64,000 nucleotides of DNA from Geobacteraceae bacterium (GTDB taxonomy: Bacteria; Desulfobacterota; Desulfuromonadia; Geobacterales; Geobacteraceae), in assembly GCA_024281055.1 (NCBI GenBank), contig JAMXLF010000012.1, positions 1 to 64,000 on the forward strand. The letters run 5' to 3'. A program made the translations under genes and the position numbers. Positions 9,671 through 49,955 of the stretch are shown one piece after another. The notes beneath the pieces are model-generated. The model was not told where the DNA came from, did no database searches, and was given only the letters and a program-made list of their open reading frames with translations. Numbering within the stretch: the first letter of the stretch is position 1; every line of letters begins with the position of its first letter.

Positions 9671-9810
9671 GGGAATAACTTGCGGCTGAGCGGAAAATGG
9701 TAGTAATCGGCTAATACGAGGTGGCAGAAACCCTCCGCTTCGGCGCCGATTGCGCTTCAGTGCGGGTTGTGGTAGGCTGTCGGAAAAAATTAACAAGGGG
9801 TAACGATCAT

Positions 9811-12800
9811 ATGAAAAAACCTGCGAAGCCGGCCGTTGCGAAGCGCGATGCTGAGGGAGCCCGGAAAGTCGCATCGAAGGAAGCGTCCACGCCGAAAAAG
9901 GTCGGCAAGGCGGCAGCCACGGCCCCTTCCGCGCCTGAAGCCCCCGAGAAACCCGGCAGAAAGAGTCCCAAGGCCCCTCTCTACATCGTCGGCATGGGAG
10001 GGTCCGCCGGCGCCCTGGAAGCCTTCGAGCAGTTCTTCAACACCATGCCCGCGGACTCGGGCCTCGCCTTCGTCCTCGTCCCCCACCTCGACCCGACCCA
10101 CAAGGGGATCATGCCCGAGCTCCTCCAGCGCGTCACCTCCATGAATGTCTACCAGGCCGAGGACGGAATGCGGGTCCAGGCGAACTCCGTCTACGTCATC
10201 CCCTCCAACAAGGACCTGTCCATAATCCACGGCACCCTCCAGCTCATGGAGCCGTCGGCCCCGCGGGGCCTCAGGCTCCCCATCGACTTCTTCTTCCGCC
10301 ACCTGGCCGAGGACCAGAAGGAGCGGGCCCTCTGCGTCATCCTCTCCGGCATGGGGACCGACGGCACCCTGGGGCTGAAAGCGATCAAGGAGCAGCTTGG
10401 CATGGCCCTGGTGCAGGACCCGGCCTCCGCCAAGTTCGACGGGATGCCGCGCAGCGCCATCGACACCGGCATGGTCGACTATGTGGCGCCGGCGGAGGAG
10501 CTCGCGGCGAAGCTCGTGGAGTTCGTGCACCACCCCGCCTTCGTCGAGGAGAAGGCCGCCACCGTCGAGGAGAAGAAGCTCACCGCGCTGCAGAAAATCT
10601 TCGTGCTGCTGCGCTCCCATACCGGCCACGACTTCTCCTTCTACAAGAAGAACACGGTGATCCGCCGGGTGGAGCGGCGCATGACCGTGCACCAGATCGG
10701 GGCCATCGACCACTACGTCCGCTACCTCCAGGAAAACCCCCAGGAGATCGATTTCCTCTTCAAGGAGCTTCTGATCGGGGTGACCAACTTCTTCCGCGAC
10801 GCGGACGCCTTCGGTGCCCTCGCCGAGAAGGGGCTGTCCAAGCTGATCGCAGGAAAGCAGAAGGGGAACTCCATGCGGGTCTGGGTTCCGGGGTGCTCCA
10901 CCGGCGAGGAGGCCTACTCCATGGCGATCGCCCTGGTGGAATACCTGGAGAAGGAGAAGCGGAACGGGGATTTCACCATCCAGATATTCGCCACCGACAT
11001 CGACAAGGATGCGATCGAAAAGGCGCGCCAGGGGTCGTATCCCGCGAACATCGCCGCGGACGTCTCCGAGGAGCGGCTCAAGCGCTTCTTCACCAAGGAC
11101 GATTCCTTCTTCCGGATCAGGAAGGAGATCCGGGAGATGGTGGTCTTCGCCCCCCACGACATCATCATCGACCCCCCCTTCACCAAGCTCGACATCCTCT
11201 GCTGCCGCAACCTCCTCATCTACTTCAACGCCGACCTGCAGAGAAAGCTCATCCCGCTCTTCCACTACGCCCTGAACCCCGGGGGTATCATGTTCCTCGG
11301 CTCCGCCGAGACCATCGGCACCTTCGGCGACCTCTTCCAGAGCCTCGACAGCAAATGGAAGATCTTTCTGCGCCGGGAGTCGGCCGCCACGCTGGCGGGG
11401 ATGATCGAGCTCCCCTCGTCGCTCCTCGCCCCCCCCGCCGAAAAGATAAAAGGAGGCAACAAGACGCGCAAGGGGGTGCAGGGTGCGATCCCGGAGACGG
11501 CGCAACGGATCATCATCGACAGCTTCACCCCCCCCTCGGTTCTGATCAACGGGAGCGGCGACATCTTCTACATCAGCGGCAGGACCGGCAAATTCCTGGA
11601 GCTCACCACCGGCAAGGCGGCCTTGAACGTCTTCGCCCTGGCCAAGCAGGGGCTCGGGATCGAGCTGGCAGGGGCCGTGCGCAAGGCCATCGCCACAGGG
11701 AAGGATGTGGTCCTGCGGGGGCTGCGGGTCAGGAGCAACGGCGGCTTTACGAACTGCGACATGACCGTGCGGCCGATCGACGAGCCCGACTACATGCGGG
11801 GGCTGCTCCTCGTTGTCTTCAGCGAATCGCGACCGGCCAGGACCCGGCGGGAGAAGGGGCACGCGGCGGGCACGGCGGCCGAAGAGCTGGAAAAGGAGAT
11901 CAAGTACCTGCGGGAGGCCCTGCAGACCACCAACGAGGAGATGGAGACTTCGCAGGAGGAGCTGAAGTCGTCCAACGAGGAGCTGCAGTCGACCAACGAG
12001 GAGCTCCAGTCCTCCAACGAAGAGCTGACCACCTCCAAGGAGGAGCTCCAGTCGCTGAACGAGGAGCTGATCACCGTCAACTCCGAGCTCCAGCAGAAGA
12101 TCGAGGAGCTGACCCTGACGAACAACGACATGCGCAACCTCCTGAACAGCACTGAGATCGCCACCATCTTCCTCGACAACAACATGAACGTCAAACGCTT
12201 CACCTCCCAGGCGACCCGGATCTTCAACCTGATCCAGAGCGACGTGGGACGGCCGCTCACCCACCTGGTCTCCAACTTGAGGTATGAGCGGCTGGAACGG
12301 GATGTGGCCGAGGTGCTGGAGACCCTCGTCTTCAAGGAGGTGCAGGTGAGGAGCAACGACGAGCGCTGGTACACCATGCGGATCATGCCGTACCGGACCG
12401 CGGAGAATGTCATCGACGGCGCTGTCCTCACCCTGATCGATGTCACCGAAATGAAGAGCCTGGAGGCGGAGTGCCGCCACTTCGCGGCCATCGTCGGCTC
12501 CTCCGGCGACGCCATCATCGGCAAGGCCCTGGACGGCACCATCACCAGCTGGAACAGGGGGGCCGAGAAACTCTACGGCTACAAGGCCGAGGAAGCGGTG
12601 GGCAAGCACGTCTCCCTGATCGTCCCGCCGGCACAGCGCAAGGAACTGGCGGGGATCATGGAGCGGTTGGCGCGGGGAGAAGAGATCGCGACGTACGACA
12701 CCGTGCGACAGAGGAAGGACGGCAGCCAGGTGCGGGTCTCCCTCACCGTCTCGCCGATCCGTAACGCCGACGGCCAGGTCACCGGCGCCTCGGCCATCGC

Positions 12801-12825
12801 CCGGGAGATCCGCGAACGGGACTGA
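9811..12825 (+). CDS. CheB-CheR fusion with PAS domains (methylesterase/methyltransferase sensor)
   Basis: 1004 residues from the ATG at 9811 (AAGGGG ten bases upstream; the frame stays open to 9721 but without a site). A Lys/Ala/Pro-rich start (1-55) precedes a CheB methylesterase domain (about 57-245) with Ser 65 in GGSAGAL, His in PHLDPTHK and Asp in GMGTDG. CheR follows at about 270-530, with the SAM-binding motif PGCSTGEEAYS and FATDIDKDAI. A PAS-like region comes next, then a long heptad coiled coil built of SNEELQS-type units at about 690-770, and two PAS domains to the end. The family is known as CheB/CheR-PAS fusions; methyl transfer to and from an MCP or another partner is presumed. 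No other chemotaxis gene is adjacent: the nearest cluster is 20 kb away. Confidence 0.9.
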   Translation: MKKPAKPAVAKRDAEGARKVASKEASTPKKVGKAAATAPSAPEAPEKPGRKSPKAPLYIVGMGGSAGALEAFEQFFNTMPADSGLAFVLVPHLDPTHKGIMPELLQRVTSMNVYQAEDGMRVQANSVYVIPSNKDLSIIHGTLQLMEPSAPRGLRLPIDFFFRHLAEDQKERALCVILSGMGTDGTLGLKAIKEQLGMALVQDPASAKFDGMPRSAIDTGMVDYVAPAEELAAKLVEFVHHPAFVEEKAATVEEKKLTALQKIFVLLRSHTGHDFSFYKKNTVIRRVERRMTVHQIGAIDHYVRYLQENPQEIDFLFKELLIGVTNFFRDADAFGALAEKGLSKLIAGKQKGNSMRVWVPGCSTGEEAYSMAIALVEYLEKEKRNGDFTIQIFATDIDKDAIEKARQGSYPANIAADVSEERLKRFFTKDDSFFRIRKEIREMVVFAPHDIIIDPPFTKLDILCCRNLLIYFNADLQRKLIPLFHYALNPGGIMFLGSAETIGTFGDLFQSLDSKWKIFLRRESAATLAGMIELPSSLLAPPAEKIKGGNKTRKGVQGAIPETAQRIIIDSFTPPSVLINGSGDIFYISGRTGKFLELTTGKAALNVFALAKQGLGIELAGAVRKAIATGKDVVLRGLRVRSNGGFTNCDMTVRPIDEPDYMRGLLLVVFSESRPARTRREKGHAAGTAAEELEKEIKYLREALQTTNEEMETSQEELKSSNEELQSTNEELQSSNEELTTSKEELQSLNEELITVNSELQQKIEELTLTNNDMRNLLNSTEIATIFLDNNMNVKRFTSQATRIFNLIQSDVGRPLTHLVSNLRYERLERDVAEVLETLVFKEVQVRSNDERWYTMRIMPYRTAENVIDGAVLTLIDVTEMKSLEAECRHFAAIVGSSGDAIIGKALDGTITSWNRGAEKLYGYKAEEAVGKHVSLIVPPAQRKELAGIMERLARGEEIATYDTVRQRKDGSQVRVSLTVSPIRNADGQVTGASAIAREIRERD

Positions 12826-12863
12826 TCCGCATTTGCAAACAAGATGACACTTATTTCCGGGCA

Positions 12864-12894
12864 GACCTCCGAGGTTTTCAAAACCTCGGAGGTC
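12864..12894. repeat. Perfect 15-base inverted repeat
   Basis: GACCTCCGAGGTTTT, one base, then its exact reverse complement. It lies between the CheB-CheR fusion stop (12825) and the start chosen for the next gene (12985). It could be a terminator-like hairpin or a protein-binding palindrome. Its presence argues against the in-frame ATG at 12844 being the true start. Confidence 0.6.
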
Positions 12895-12984
12895 TTCGGG
12901 AGTCGAAAGCAAACTGGAATAGAGGACCATTCAAAGGGCATCGGCCATTCAACGTGGAATCGGCCATCCAAAGAGGAAACGGCC

Positions 12985-14346
12985 ATGAGACGAAAGGGAA
13001 AAAACGACGCAGCCACCCGTGCCCTGCGGCGCAATGCCGAGAACAAGCTGGCAGAGGGAGGAGGCAGGGCATCCGGCGTGGAGGAACGGGACCCCCTCGC
13101 CCTGGTGCACGAGCTGGAGGTCCACCAGATCGAGCTGGAGATGCAGAACGAGGCGCTGCGTCGCGCCCAGTGGGAAGCGGACGGGTTGCGGCAGAAATAC
13201 CAGGACCTGTACGACTTCGCCCCGGTCGGCTACGTTACCATCGGCCCGGACGGGACAATCCGTGAGGCGAACGAGGCCGCGGCCTTCCGGCTCGGCATCG
13301 CGAGAAAGCGCCTTCGCAGCGCTCCCTTCGTATCGTTCCTGGACATATCGTCGGTCCCCGTATTCCGTGCCTTCATGCAACAGGCCCTTGCCACCGGCAC
13401 CAGGCAGAGTTGCGAGGTGGAGCTGCCCTGGGTAAACAAGGTGTGCCACCTCCTCATCGAGGGGATCGCCGTTCCGGCGCCGGAAGGAAAGACACTGGAG
13501 GTCCGGGCGGCCCTCATCGATGTCAGCGAGCGGCGGGAGATGGAGAAGCGGATCGGGTTCCTCAACGGCGAGCTGGAGCGGAAGGCTGAAGCGCTGGCAG
13601 CCGTCAACCGGGACCTGGAGGCATTCGGCTGGACGGTCACCAATGAGCTGAAGCGCCCCCTCACCTATATCCACTCCGCGATGGAGGTCCTCACGCAGGA
13701 CGCCGACCGGCTGAGCCACCAGCAGAGGGAAATGGCCGACATCATCCGCAGCTCCTGCGTGGATATGTCCAAAATGATCACGACTATCTTCAAGTTGTCG
13801 CGGTCTGCCTGGGGAGCGCTCCGCTGCACGGCGACCGACCTCTCCCGGCTGGCGCAGGACATCGCGGTGGACCTTCGCCTCACGGAACCGGCGCGCCGGG
13901 TCACCTTTGTCATCCCTTCGGGCCTGGTGGCCAACTGCAACCGCGAACTCACCAGGATCGTCCTGGAGAACCTGCTGGAAAACGCCTGGAAATACACCGC
14001 CCAGCGCGACGAAGCGCGGATCGAGTTCGGCAGCTTCGAGCAGGAAGCCGAAACGGTCTACTTCGTGCGGGACAACGGCATCGGGTTCGACGCGGAACAG
14101 GCGAAAGACATCTTCGCCCCCGGTTTCAACCTCGCGGCAACGAAGGAGCTGATGGGGAGCGGCATCGGACTCGCTACGGTCAAAACGGTCATTCAGCGCC
14201 ATGGCGGGCGGGTCTGGGCCGAGGGTGGCGAGGACAAGGGTGCGGCCATCTTTTTCACCTTCTCGAACGGCCACGGCGATGCCTCCGGAGCGGGAATGCC
14301 GGATCTGCCCGTGACCGGGAGCTTCGCAGCACCAGCGGGGGAGTGA
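12985..14346 (+). CDS. Degenerate histidine kinase (pseudokinase; catalytic His replaced by Asn)
   Basis: 453 residues from the ATG at 12985, chosen for AGAGGA seven bases upstream and because its N-terminus (basic start, then DPLALVHELEVHQIELEMQ) matches the paralogues at 14358 and 42200. PAS at about 70-185. Where the related kinases read YTVSHDLRKPL, this protein reads WTVTNELKRPL: codon 13642-13644 is AAT, so residue 220 is Asn and the phospho-acceptor is missing. The ATPase domain looks intact (NLLENAWKYT, DNGIGFD, GSGIGLA). It may bind ATP and heterodimerise with or regulate a neighbour, for example the hybrid kinase 11 bases downstream; that role is inference. It ends with a short non-conserved tail (about 436-453). 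Confidence 0.85.
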   Translation: MRRKGKNDAATRALRRNAENKLAEGGGRASGVEERDPLALVHELEVHQIELEMQNEALRRAQWEADGLRQKYQDLYDFAPVGYVTIGPDGTIREANEAAAFRLGIARKRLRSAPFVSFLDISSVPVFRAFMQQALATGTRQSCEVELPWVNKVCHLLIEGIAVPAPEGKTLEVRAALIDVSERREMEKRIGFLNGELERKAEALAAVNRDLEAFGWTVTNELKRPLTYIHSAMEVLTQDADRLSHQQREMADIIRSSCVDMSKMITTIFKLSRSAWGALRCTATDLSRLAQDIAVDLRLTEPARRVTFVIPSGLVANCNRELTRIVLENLLENAWKYTAQRDEARIEFGSFEQEAETVYFVRDNGIGFDAEQAKDIFAPGFNLAATKELMGSGIGLATVKTVIQRHGGRVWAEGGEDKGAAIFFTFSNGHGDASGAGMPDLPVTGSFAAPAGE

Positions 14347-14357
14347 GGGGAGCGGGC

Positions 14358-16088
14358 ATGAGCAAAAAAGGGGACAGTAACATCCCGGGCCGCACCCTGC
14401 GCCGCCGGGCCGAGGCGAAGCTCGCAACCGCAGAGAAGGACGTGGCCGGCGTGGAGGAACGCGATCCCCTTGCGCTCGTCCACGAACTGCGGGTCCACCA
14501 GGTCGAGCTGGAAATGCAGAACGAGGAATTGCAGCGGTCCCGGCAGGAGTCCGAAGAGCTGCGGGAGAAATACCAGGACCTGTATGATTTCGCCCCGCTC
14601 GGCTACGTCACCCTTGACGCCAACGGGGCGGTGCGGGAGGCGAACCTGGCCGCCGCCGCCCTCGTGGGGTGCGACCGGCACAGGCTCGTGGGCCGGCCCC
14701 TGTTCCTGTTCCTCGCGCCGCAGTCACGGAACGATTACGATGCCTTCCTCCGGCGCCTTCTCGCCGGGGCCGCCGGTGCGCGGTGCGAGGCGCGGCTCGG
14801 CGCCAACGCGACGCGGCAGGGGTGGCTTCTCCTCGACGGGGGGACATTCATCGGGAACGGAAAGACCGGGCCGGCCGCGCGAGCGGCGTTGATTGACATC
14901 TCCGAGCGAAAGCGCTTCGAGGATGATCTCTGCCAGGCCCGCAAGACAGCCGAGGAGGCCAGCCGGGCCAAGGGGCAGTTTCTGGCCAACATGAGCCACG
15001 AGCTCCGCACCCCGATGACCGGCGTCATCGGCATGCTGGACCTCGCCCTCGGCGAAGAGCTCACGCCCGTGCTCCGGAGCTACCTGGAGGTGGCGGACAG
15101 CTCGGCCAGGTCGCTGCTGAGACTCCTCAACGACATCCTCGACATGACGAAGATCGAGGCGGGAAAGCTTTCGCTGGAGGAAGAGCCGTTTGTGCTGCGT
15201 GAGTGCGTCGCCGGGGTGATCGATCTCCTCACGCCCGAGGCGCGGCGCAAGGGGCTCGATCTGACCTTCACCTTGGCGGACGGCCTGCCGGAAATCGCGG
15301 TCGGGGATCGGATGCGGTTGCAGCAGGTCCTCACGAACCTCGTGGGCAACGCCGTCAAGTTCACCGATCAGGGGTATGTGAAGACAGAAGTGACGGGAGG
15401 CGACCCCGATTCAACCGGCACGCGGAAGTTCACCTTCACCGTGACCGACACCGGCATCGGCATCCCCGCCGACAAGAAAGAGCTCATCTTCCAGATGTTC
15501 AGCCAGGCCGATATCTCCCACGCCCGCAGGTTCGGAGGCGCCGGCCTGGGGCTGGCCATCAGCCGGGAGCTCGCCATCCTGATGGGGGGGACCATTTCCT
15601 TCGCCAGCAAGGAGGGAGCCGGGAGCACCTTCACCTTCACGGTCCCCCTCGGGGAGACCCGCTCCGCGGCCGAGCCCGTCGAAACCCATCTCCCGGAGAC
15701 GGAGGAAAGCGACCCGCGGCTCCTCCTCGTGGAAGACGATCCGGTCACATTGCAGATCATCGATCTGATGCTCCGGCGGGCGAACTTCGACCTGGACATC
15801 GCCGTTAACGGCCGGCAGGGGATCGAGATGTGGGAGACGGGGAACTACGACCTCGTCCTCATGGACGTGCAGATGCCCGGCATGGACGGGTTCGAGGCGA
15901 CCCGCACCATCCGCGAGAAAGAACGGGCGCGCGGCGGCCACACCCCCATCGTCGCCATGACGGCCTTCGCCCTGAAGGAGGACGAGGACAAATGCCTCGC
16001 CGCGGGCATGGATGCCTACGTCCCGAAACCGATCGACTTCCGCAGATGCATCGACGTGATCCGGGACCTCATCAAACAGCCGGAGTAG
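14358..16088 (+). CDS. Hybrid histidine kinase, PAS-HisKA-HATPase-REC
   Basis: 576 residues from the ATG at 14358 (GGGGAG upstream), 11 bases after the pseudokinase stop, so very likely co-translated. The N-terminus (DPLALVHELRVHQVELEMQ, KYQDLYDFAPLGYVT) is shared with the genes at 12985 and 42200. PAS at about 65-185. The transmitter is of the SHELRTPM class, His 214, with NLVGNAVKFT, DTGIGIP and GAGLGLA. A C-terminal receiver (about 450-570) carries VEDD and Asp 503 in VLMDVQMPG, with Lys in PKPID. Both kinase and receiver look active, so internal phosphorelay is expected. The receiver is most similar to the stand-alone receiver at 27910. Confidence 0.9.
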   Translation: MSKKGDSNIPGRTLRRRAEAKLATAEKDVAGVEERDPLALVHELRVHQVELEMQNEELQRSRQESEELREKYQDLYDFAPLGYVTLDANGAVREANLAAAALVGCDRHRLVGRPLFLFLAPQSRNDYDAFLRRLLAGAAGARCEARLGANATRQGWLLLDGGTFIGNGKTGPAARAALIDISERKRFEDDLCQARKTAEEASRAKGQFLANMSHELRTPMTGVIGMLDLALGEELTPVLRSYLEVADSSARSLLRLLNDILDMTKIEAGKLSLEEEPFVLRECVAGVIDLLTPEARRKGLDLTFTLADGLPEIAVGDRMRLQQVLTNLVGNAVKFTDQGYVKTEVTGGDPDSTGTRKFTFTVTDTGIGIPADKKELIFQMFSQADISHARRFGGAGLGLAISRELAILMGGTISFASKEGAGSTFTFTVPLGETRSAAEPVETHLPETEESDPRLLLVEDDPVTLQIIDLMLRRANFDLDIAVNGRQGIEMWETGNYDLVLMDVQMPGMDGFEATRTIREKERARGGHTPIVAMTAFALKEDEDKCLAAGMDAYVPKPIDFRRCIDVIRDLIKQPE

Positions 16089-42003: not shown

Positions 42004-42199
42004 CCATTAACCCGGCGTTTTAAACTCCCCCATCCTCGCAGCCACGTCTTCACTCTCCCATTACTCCCCGCCTTTTGCCCATCCAGCCCACAATCGGACG
42101 ACCGGTCGCTTGCAATAGCGTGATTACGTGATAAGAATTTGTCGAGGCAGTTGGTCCGGGATAGTTACGCATCCAGATTACCTTAATACGAGAAGCCCC

Positions 42200-43925
42200 A
42201 TGGAAGGGAAGAGGGATAAAAAAGGAAGCCCGTTACGCCAGCGCGCCGAGCTGAAGTGGGCCGCCCTGAAGAAAGGCAGGCCCGCCGTATCCGGCGCAGA
42301 CCATATCGCCGTCGTCCACGAGCTCCAGGTCCACCAGATCGAGCTGGAGATGCAGAACGAGGAGCTGCGTCGCGCCCAGCAGGAAGCCGAGGAACTGCGG
42401 GATAAGTACCAGGACCTGTACGACTTCGCCGGTGGGCTACGTCACCCTCGACGCCAACGGGACGGTCCGGGAGGCGAATCTGGCCGCCACCGCCCTCTTG
42501 GGCTGCGAGCGGCACCGTTTTATAGGACAGACCCTGTCCATGTTCATCGCACCGGTGTCGCAGGGAGAGTATGACTCCTTCCTCCGCCGCCTCCTTGCCG
42601 GGGAATCCGGAGTGCGGTTCGACGCGCGACTCGGTGCCAACACGAAACGGCAGGGTTGGGTTCTCCTCGATGGGGGAGCATTCGTCGGCGGGAAGGCGCG
42701 CCAGCCCGGGCGCCTGACGATAACGGACATCACCGAGCGGAAGATAGCGGAAGAGATGCGCGTGCAGGTGGAAGAGGCGTTGCGGGAGAGCGAAGAGCGT
42801 TTCCGCGCCACTTTCGACCAGGCGGCAGTCGGCATCGGCCATGTGGCCCCGGACGGCAGCTGGCTGCTGGTTAACCGGAAGTACTGCGATATCGTCGGCT
42901 ACCCGGAAGCGGAGATCAGGAAACTTAGCTTCAAGGAGATCACCCATCCCGACGACCGGGAAACCAGCATGGAGCATTTTCGGCTCATGATGGAGGGGAA
43001 GCTCGGGAGCTATTCCCTGGAAAAGCGCTATATCCGCAAGGACGGCTCCATCGTCTGGGTAACTCTCACGGCCTCTATGGTTACCGATACCGCCGGCAAG
43101 CCGAAATTCGTCGTAGGGATCATAGAGGACATCACCTCCCGCAAACGGGCGGAGGAAGAAATCGAGCGGCTCAACACCGACCTGGCGGCGCGGGCCACCG
43201 AGCTGGAGACTGCCAACCATGAGCTGGAGGCGTTTAACTACACGGTCGCCCACGATTTGCGCAAGCCGCTTACGGTTATCAACAGCTACTGCCAGGTAAT
43301 CAAGGAACTGTGCGGCGATAAACTCGACGAAAAATGCCTGGACTACCTCCGGGAGGGCTACGAGGGGACCCTGCGCATGAACGCTCTCATCGACGCCCTG
43401 CTCAACTTCTCCCGTCTCACCCATATAGAGCCGCGCCGGGAAGCGGTCGACCTCAGTACCATGGTGCAAGAGGTGGCTTCCGAGCTGAAACTGGCCGAGC
43501 CGTCCCGCCGGGCCACGTTCCGGATCGCCGAGGGGGTAACGGTTGAGGGTGACGCGAAACTGCTGCGGGTAGCCCTGGACAACCTCCTCGGCAACGCCTG
43601 GAAGTACACCGGCGCGCGAGAAGAAGCAGTCATCGAGTTCGGCGTGGCAGACATCGACGACAAGCCGGCCTGTTTCGTCCGGGACAACGGACAGGGCTTC
43701 GCCATGGCCGACGCGGAGAAGCTCTTCATTCCCTTCCGGCGCCTCCCCGGCGCCGATGAATTCAAGGGGTTCGGCATCGGCCTCGCCACGGTGGAGCGGA
43801 TCATCCGTCGCCATGGCGGCCGTGTCTGGGCCGAGAGTGCGCCGGGCAAAGGCGCGACGTTCTGGTTCACTCTCCCCCCCGCAAACCAGCCCGTCCGTTA
43901 TTTTGAAGAAACGCCCCTCCGTTGA
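42200..43925 (+). pseudogene. PAS-PAS histidine kinase interrupted by a 2-base frameshift
   Basis: The N-terminal part (from the ATG at 42200: basic start, VVHELQVHQIELEMQNEEL, KYQDLYDFA) runs out of frame at about 42430. The rest continues in another frame from VGYVTLDANG to 43925. Paralogues at 12985 and 14358 read DFAPVGYVT and DFAPLGYVT there; restoring two Cs (GCC-CCG-GTG-GGC-TAC) rebuilds the same sequence exactly. The remainder is intact: PAS, a second PAS (RATFDQAAVGIGH), FNYTVAHDLRKPLTV with Cys at H+13/20/28, NLLGNAWKYT, DNGQGFA and GFGIGLA. It is either a recent inactivating deletion in a C-run or a sequencing error; otherwise the gene would make a 570-residue kinase. Confidence 0.8.
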
Positions 43926-48860: not shown

Positions 48861-49955
48861 ATGAAAATCCTGATAGCCGAAGATGATCCCGGTTTTCGCC
48901 ATCTCCTGGAAGAGACGCTGACGAGATGGGGCTACGAGGTGATCGCCGCCCGCGACGGCAGCGAGGCCTGGCAGGCGCTGCGGGCTGACGATCCCCCGCG
49001 GCTCGCCATCCTCGACTGGCTGATGCCGGAAATGGACGGTGTGGAGCTATGCCGGAGGGTCAGGAAAGAACTGCCCGAACCCTACACCTACCTCATTCTC
49101 CTCACGTCACAGCAGAAGAACGAAGACCTCGTCACCGGCATGGAAGCGGGGGCGGACGACTACATCACCAAGCCACTCAAGGCCAACGAGCTACGGGTCC
49201 GCCTCAACGCCGGAAGGCGCATCGTCGAGCTGCATCACGCGCTTGCCGCCCACGCCTCGGACCTGGAAGCCGCCAACCGGGACCTAGAGGCGTTCAGCTA
49301 CGCCATCGCCCATGACCTGCTCAAGTCGTTATTATCCATCGGCGAGTACGCCAAATCGATCCAGGATATGTACTGCAGCAAGCAGGACGAACAGTGCCGG
49401 TCCTACACCCGTCGGATATACGAGAAAACCAGGCACCTTGGACAGCTGATCGGCATTATGCACGATTTCTTCAGACCGGCGAGAATCGAGCTCCATCGGA
49501 AAACAGTCGAACTGAGCGCCCTGGCCGGAAAAACGGCAGAGAGACTCCGGGGGACGGCCCCCGAACGCCGGGTCACCTTCCGGATCGTCGGAGGGATCAC
49601 GGCCACCGGAGACGCAGAGATGCTGAAGACGGTCCTGGACAACCTCTTCGGCAATGCCTGGAAACATACCGCCACTCGCGAGGAAGCGGTCATCGAATTC
49701 GGGGCGACCGAGGCCGAAGGGAAACGGGTCTTTTTCGTGCGCGACAACGGTACGGGCTTCGATATGGCCCATGCGGACAAGCTGTTTGCACCGTTCCAGC
49801 AATTACCCGGCAGTGGGGAATCCGCGGGACTCGGTATCGGCCTCGCCACGGTGGAGCGGATTATCCGTCGGCACGACGGCCGTGTCTGGGCCGAGAGTGC
49901 GCCGGGCAAAGGCGCCACATTTTATTTCACGCTGGGCGGCGCATTGACCGCCTGA
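48861..49955 (+). CDS. Receiver-histidine kinase with altered H-box
   Basis: 364 residues. Receiver (1-120) with AEDD and Asp 52 in LAILDWLMPEMDG, ITKPLKANE; a short coiled coil; then FSYAIAHDLLKSLLS with His 151. The histidine is present, but the usual LRxPL after it is LLKSLL, so the conserved Pro is missing. Cys residues at H+21 and H+28. The ATPase domain has NLFGNAWKHT, DNGTGFD and GLGIGLA. AGGAGAG precedes the ATG. The receiver is very like that of the REC-GGDEF protein at 51398, so both may answer to the same kinase; the DisA_N-like gene lies between them. Confidence 0.88.
   Translation: MKILIAEDDPGFRHLLEETLTRWGYEVIAARDGSEAWQALRADDPPRLAILDWLMPEMDGVELCRRVRKELPEPYTYLILLTSQQKNEDLVTGMEAGADDYITKPLKANELRVRLNAGRRIVELHHALAAHASDLEAANRDLEAFSYAIAHDLLKSLLSIGEYAKSIQDMYCSKQDEQCRSYTRRIYEKTRHLGQLIGIMHDFFRPARIELHRKTVELSALAGKTAERLRGTAPERRVTFRIVGGITATGDAEMLKTVLDNLFGNAWKHTATREEAVIEFGATEAEGKRVFFVRDNGTGFDMAHADKLFAPFQQLPGSGESAGLGIGLATVERIIRRHDGRVWAESAPGKGATFYFTLGGALTA

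Follow-up and report, generated by a model that had tools for sequence, protein, structure and literature searches.

The gene at 12985–14346 of the window, as we call the whole 64,000-nucleotide stretch of DNA that was analysed (coordinates refer to the + strand unless marked otherwise), encodes a 453-residue protein that keeps a histidine kinase fold and a maintained reading frame and has lost catalytic residues, and thus belongs to the histidine pseudokinases. Our preferred reading, to which we assign a probability of roughly one half, is that it is a maintained pseudo-histidine kinase that regulates signalling proteins encoded nearby without catalysis, whichever of them is its partner. It has Asn at the phospho-accepting position and has lost both the F-box Phe and the ATP-lid Arg. 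The histidine pseudokinases studied so far are, to our knowledge, few.

The open reading frame, Pfam searches and alignments of the kinase core delineate a coil, a PAS domain, a degenerate DHp (HisKA) domain and a CA (HATPase) domain. The N-terminal coil (residues 37–77, 13093–13215; HELEVHQIELEMQNE) corresponds to a helix over the same residues in the structural model, and it recurs in the protein encoded from 14358 and in genes located behind CheB-CheR-PAS genes. It is followed by the PAS domain (residues 80–185, 13222–13539; Pfam PAS_4, 40.1 bits), while the CA domain, in which the residues of the N, G1 and G2 boxes have been preserved, occupies 13837–14268. Besides PAS_4 and HATPase_c, Pfam recognises a HisKA domain with a weak score of 31.9 bits; the four further kinases of the window that were scanned scored between 42.8 and 78 bits. 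The frame opens upstream, at ATG 12844; the start at ATG 12985 is supported because the best full-length relatives align from residues 6–10 of that reading. An AlphaFold2 model computed from 21 sequences (the alignment was made without L034, which has a stop codon in the stretch, L039 and L044) had a mean pLDDT of 82.1 and a pTM of 0.49, and predicts an unbroken helix 181–238 running through residue 220 and a preserved CA fold, with the lid block 381–390 at a pLDDT of about 60. Among the fold matches listed, most were histidine kinases and phytochromes, and the best solved structure matched by sequence was 8f71 (73 bits).

A preliminary description, made from the letters of the DNA, had reported Asn at residue 220 (codon AAT, 13642–13644) followed by ELK, and the H-box indeed reads TVTNELKRPL. 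N220, G380 and N382 align with His248, Phe403 and Arg405 of CpxA (MAFFT) and with His260, Phe428 and Arg430 of HK853 (HMMER, chain 6azr_A; residue numbers of HK853 were obtained by counting along the alignment from His260). The protein therefore has neither the phospho-accepting His nor the F-box Phe and lid Arg of an active HisKA kinase: at codons 380–382 (14122–14130), where alignments and a scan in shifted frame locate the change, PGFNL stands for PFQRL, so that the Phe found in 70/70 close relatives is replaced by G380 and the Arg found in 68/70 by N382. The lid Arg has a role in contacting the gamma-phosphate; no publication on its mutagenesis stood out in our literature search. In CpxA, according to PMC3904827, the F-box Phe403 together with Leu419 stabilises the DHp–CA interface in active and inactive conformations alike, and Arg251, whose position is taken by Lys223 in the pseudokinase, contacts the gamma-phosphate.

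The nucleotide-binding residues have fared differently. The consensus is matched in the N, G1 and G2 boxes by N329, N333, K336, D363, G365, G367, G391, G393 and G395, and the CA-domain residues that contact the ATP phosphates in CpxA (N360, R363, Y364, T417, L419, G420 and L421; PMC3904827) correspond, in order, to N333, K336, Y337, S392, I394, G395 and L396, which are the same or similar; judged by these residues, the ATP pocket appears intact. The earlier view that the ATPase domain had been kept thus holds for the N-, G1- and G2-box residues and fails for the F-box Phe and the lid Arg. These two losses, which it missed, strengthen its proposal of a dead kinase, and on the residues present we consider the protein very probably devoid of catalytic activity. 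We rejected the idea that every deviating column is a sign of death: D221E, D319N and R401T do not signal inactivity, because active CpxA has the same residues.

The extent to which the substitution is unusual was assessed by running a kinase-core profile against all open frames of at least 150 residues in the window and in the fetched loci. This yielded 225 distinct core rows; 208 of them extended from the H-box into the C-terminal part, and the other 17 were dropped for coverage. The phospho site is His in 205 of them, Asn in the 12985–14346 gene, Phe in one (L049) and Lys in one (L151). Within the closest subfamily, defined by a BLAST score of at least 130 bits to the kinase core and comprising 70 rows besides the query, both the His and the following Asp are present in 70/70; among the 66 columns with at least 85% conservation, the pseudokinase deviates at 15, the largest number in any of the 71 rows (median 3). 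The assertion that every paralogue has His is accordingly correct for 205 of the 207 other cores and does not extend to the genome as a whole, in which L151 (G000:C35:188500-200000, minus strand, 981–2888) carries Lys in the motif MSKELRTPL and represents a further pseudokinase candidate. The Phe-bearing core (L049, 1825–3879), from a Thiobacillus MAG, reads ISFDLRTPL. A third atypical kinase, at 48861–49952 of the window (L118), has a degenerate H-box, AHDLLKSLLS, in which the His is kept and the usual Arg and Pro are lost; it forms the longest end branch (1.16) in the 29-row tree described below.

The bases of codons 380–382 point to how the F-box was altered. Read in frame, they agree with the 70 relatives at a mean of 0.67 of 9 bases; shifted by two bases, the mean agreement rises to 4.89 of 7, with 7 of 7 for one relative and at least 6 for ten. 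In a scan of such shifted agreement over 217 positions and the first 30 relatives, the F-box site ranked highest (4.73), followed by two overlapping neighbours of the same site (4.0 and 3.73) and by the unrelated codon 223 (3.73), and from Leu383 onward the in-frame translation agrees with the family. The lesion hence resembles a pair of small indels, compensating each other over some nine bases, more than a run of substitutions. If this is right, the frame behind the F-box was preserved, which fits either selection for a full-length protein or one complex mutation. Elsewhere in the window, at 42128–43925, a coil-PAS kinase is apparently split by a frameshift near 42430, with its N-terminal part (42203–42430, 59% to the pseudokinase) in one frame and the remainder in another.

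The nearest relative found, L002, comes from a genome of another genus (G010) and is 47% identical to the pseudokinase; the two are sisters (SH-aLRT 98) in a 29-row tree that stems from a short search and whose star is to be trusted less. Since the gene immediately before L002 encodes a CheB-CheR-PAS protein that shares 71% identity with the window's over 990 query residues, we take L002 as the positional orthologue. It keeps the His, the F-box Phe and the lid Arg, which indicates that the loss is specific to the lineage of the pseudokinase and that the substitution is not fixed in orthologues. The preliminary description had named His in orthologues from other strains as the observation that would count against it; such a His is present in this orthologue, which comes from another genus rather than another strain. 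No closer orthologue was found among 141 genomes of the order, among 395 genomes of the phylum (best 40%, with His in the H-box) or among the best 80 loci of a wider contig scan (best 41%, the records of very near genomes possibly being left out). The genus is represented by one genome, the window's own (G000), and the Asn-bearing dead state is so far known from that one genome.

A lesion shared by no close orthologue raises the possibility that the gene is simply decaying, the hybrid kinase at 14358 having taken over behind CheB-CheR-PAS and left a recently formed pseudogene of still intact appearance. We regard this as the best-placed of the alternatives, though an unlikely one. The gene is the most deviant of the 71 rows at conserved columns, its F-box change resembles paired indels, and, at columns conserved in ten outgroups, it carries 33 lineage-specific changes compared to 17 in its His-bearing sister, spread over all four domains (pseudokinase-only versus L002-only: coil 4/3, PAS 7/4, DHp 8/4, CA 14/6). 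This excess is mild, is largest in the catalytic domain and does not amount to a collapse; at the DHp and CA columns taken together (22 versus 10) it allows for some relaxed constraint. Free decay, however, is unlikely because the branch length is close to the sister's (0.59 versus 0.55, with a tree median of 0.44), the frame runs for 453 codons without a stop, and GC3, at 0.83–0.86 across the domains, resembles that of the four neighbouring genes (0.78–0.91; GC in the gap is 0.51). The compensated indels moreover preserve the G2 box, and the residues of the N, G1 and G2 boxes are kept. Given a dead enzyme, we judge it likely that the gene is maintained rather than decaying; that it is both dead and maintained, whatever its partner, has odds somewhat better than even.

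The kept N-, G1- and G2-box residues would also suit a GHKL protein that binds or hydrolyses ATP in some enzymatic role other than that of a kinase, which we nevertheless find very improbable, as the lid Arg and the F-box Phe are lost and Pfam returns a kinase layout only (PAS, HisKA and HATPase_c). That an ordinary active kinase has been altered by an error of sequencing or assembly, or by a mutation peculiar to the strain, is a slimmer prospect still: the genome is a draft of 103 contigs, the only one from its genus in the collection compared, the positional orthologue has His and paired indels could be read errors, but independent errors would be needed at codon 220 and at codons 380–382, the latter with exact frame compensation, and further unusual residues occur at other conserved columns. 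A single-base error cannot account for the state of the gene, because the F-box change is separate from codon 220, and with two distinct motifs changed we set error aside as the whole explanation. Least probable of all is that the pseudokinase is phosphorylated in trans or works as a phosphatase or a hub for phosphotransfer: although the model contains the DHp helices and Pro225 is conserved, there is no His to carry the phosphate, and Arg224, four residues past 220, stands where the HisKA phosphatase motif (E/D-x-x-T/N) needs Thr or Asn.

The pseudokinase gene is flanked by a CheB-CheR-PAS gene, whose partner position it occupies, and by a hybrid kinase gene that follows directly. The former, at 9811–12825, encodes a CheB-CheR-PAS-PAS fusion (Pfam CheB_methylest, CheR_N, CheR, PAS_10 and PAS_4) whose frame opens at GTG 9721 and whose likely start is ATG 9811; opposite to it runs an antisense open frame of 1046 codons (about 9790–12930, − strand), probably a consequence of high GC3. 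The 159-base gap between the fusion and the pseudokinase gene has a fold z of −4.39 as a whole and contains a perfect 15-bp palindrome (12864–12894, no strand assigned), a dispersed element with six genome sites at up to 3 mismatches and none for the reversed-pattern control. On the other side, the gap of 11 bases (14347–14357) to the next ATG, at 14358, is as first described, and so is the N-terminal design common to both kinases, the coil-PAS start being 69% identical over 74 residues. The downstream gene (14358–16088) encodes a hybrid histidine kinase made up of coil, PAS, HisKA, HATPase and receiver domains, with HELRTP, the F-box Phe and the receiver present and its motifs intact. The region from 3685 to 55661 is a dense sensor-kinase cluster, with 14 distinct core matches on the contig, one of which (64308) falls just past the window.

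The arrangement was then examined in 68 CheB-CheR-PAS loci: the window, seven found via the pseudokinase, and 60 for which the CheB-CheR protein was the sole criterion. The last group was drawn from the first 70 CheB-CheR matches, six of which were already in the set (the window, G010, G045, G013, G005:C71 and G063) and four of which were left out (G107:C14, G088:C17, G086:C17 and G116:C468). A coil-tagged gene occurs within 3.5 kb downstream of the CheB-CheR-PAS gene in 65 of the 68 loci, including 57 of the 60. Of these matches, 47 span the coil and the start of the PAS domain and 18 are limited to the coil; 56 start no more than 412 bases away. The loci devoid of a match are L224, L238 and L276, the last with only 166 bases downstream to look at. 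In the window, 280 bases separate the CheB-CheR frame from the start of the coil, a longer distance than in 50 of the 65 loci, and a hairpin lies in between; this counts against our preferred reading. When only the nearest downstream core on the same strand and within 4 kb is counted, a kinase follows in 45 of the 68 loci, with His in 44 and Asn in one, the pseudokinase; among the 60 loci chosen by CheB-CheR alone a kinase is found in 37, with His in 37/37. Five partners were scanned from the other 23 loci, and all five were PAS proteins with a sigma-54 activator domain.

Across the order, then, a CheB-CheR-PAS gene is followed by a gene with a common coil and an exchangeable output, namely several kinase types or sigma-54 activators (window, L128–L137, L050, L055 and L224–L283). 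The coil itself gave 43 matches in 22 genomes, and its being exclusive to CheB-CheR partners was rejected, as about 15 of the 43, by a hand count among the matches listed, have a CheB-CheR gene within 3.5 kb; no such gene was found in the examined stretch of five of the ten loci L128–L137, which had been fetched as pseudokinase homologues. A like three-gene set exists elsewhere, since in G045 a CheB-CheR-PAS gene is followed first by a hybrid kinase that shares about 60% identity with the 14358 protein, then by a His-bearing relative of the pseudokinase. No publication on CheB-CheR-PAS genes with coil-tagged partners stood out in a search with broad terms, which is weak evidence of absence.

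The preliminary description had considered the 14358 kinase as partner and missed the CheB-CheR-PAS connection. A heterodimer with the 14358 product, to which the pseudokinase is 34.5% identical over the aligned proteins, may be possible in view of the shared coil-PAS sequence; pairing through the DHp domains is disfavoured because the H-boxes are of different types (NELKRPL versus HELRTPM). The CheB-CheR-PAS protein is an equally likely partner, considering how regularly a gene with the same coil follows such genes. If the protein is dead and maintained, it is reasonably likely that one of these two neighbours is the partner, while the odds of all three propositions holding together are a little short of even.

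As a maintained, non-catalytic regulator, the protein would not autophosphorylate, and with the F-box Phe gone its CA domain would be expected to dock poorly on the DHp helices. Serving as a sensor or scaffold, it might then bind through its coil-PAS module the CheB-CheR-PAS protein, the 14358 hybrid kinase or both, and conformational signals sensed by the PAS domain, possibly dependent on nucleotide, might be passed to these partners without phosphotransfer, as from DivL to CckA. A bolder and quite doubtful extension is that the CheB-CheR-PAS proteins of the order form a modular signalling platform that recruits its downstream partner through a shared coil tag (HELxVHQIELExQN) bearing exchangeable outputs (several kinase types and sigma-54 activators), and that in this lineage one tagged kinase, through loss of its His and a frame-compensated rewrite of the F-box and lid, became a phosphate-free switch that gates the tagged hybrid kinase in step with the CheB-CheR methylation state. 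Coil-tagged partners behind CheB-CheR-PAS genes throughout the order would make the role of CheB-CheR fusions testable. The His-bearing positional orthologue in a related genus, in turn, allows the states before and after the loss to be compared directly, and the altered F-box hints at a specific route along which a kinase can be deprived of phosphotransfer and yet retain its frame and ATP pocket.

The parent subfamily comprises PAS kinases with an FxYxVSHDLRxPL box and a bacteriophytochrome-like core (8f71), to which the 70 relatives belong; these differ from the pseudokinase in retaining the His, the Asp and the F-box Phe (70/70 each) and the lid Arg (68/70). Among systems that signal in spite of lost catalysis, ChrS of Corynebacterium glutamicum lost its activity by a frameshift and signals via a paralogous kinase, but this occurred in evolved laboratory strains and truncated the CA domain (PMC9491836), whereas the pseudokinase keeps its frame and CA fold; the interaction of truncated ChrS with HrrS was negative in a two-hybrid assay (PMC9491836). 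RocA of group A Streptococcus likewise acts via a live kinase, CovS, but spans the membrane and keeps its predicted His (H246, which is dispensable), and the RocA–CovS interaction was negative in a two-hybrid assay and positive by co-immunoprecipitation (PMC7028121). The two negative two-hybrid results weigh against our preferred reading. That reading has its precedent in DivL of Caulobacter, which combines a PAS input and a DHp-CA core with a replaced phospho-His and a link to the hybrid kinase CckA, has neither kinase nor phosphatase activity, and binds an ATP analogue weakly (PMC4211667); 4q20, which falls under this comparison, is among the solved structures matched by the pseudokinase sequence (38.7 bits). 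DivL differs in having several PAS domains and Tyr at the phospho site (Ala in one species), a replacement that runs through its homologues, and in the apparent retention of the H, N, G1, F and G2 boxes in other respects (PMC4211667). The pseudokinase therefore falls outside the DivL family as defined there by Tyr at the phospho site and otherwise intact boxes: it carries Asn, has lost the F-box Phe and the lid Arg, lies in a CheB-CheR-PAS neighbourhood and is known from one genome.
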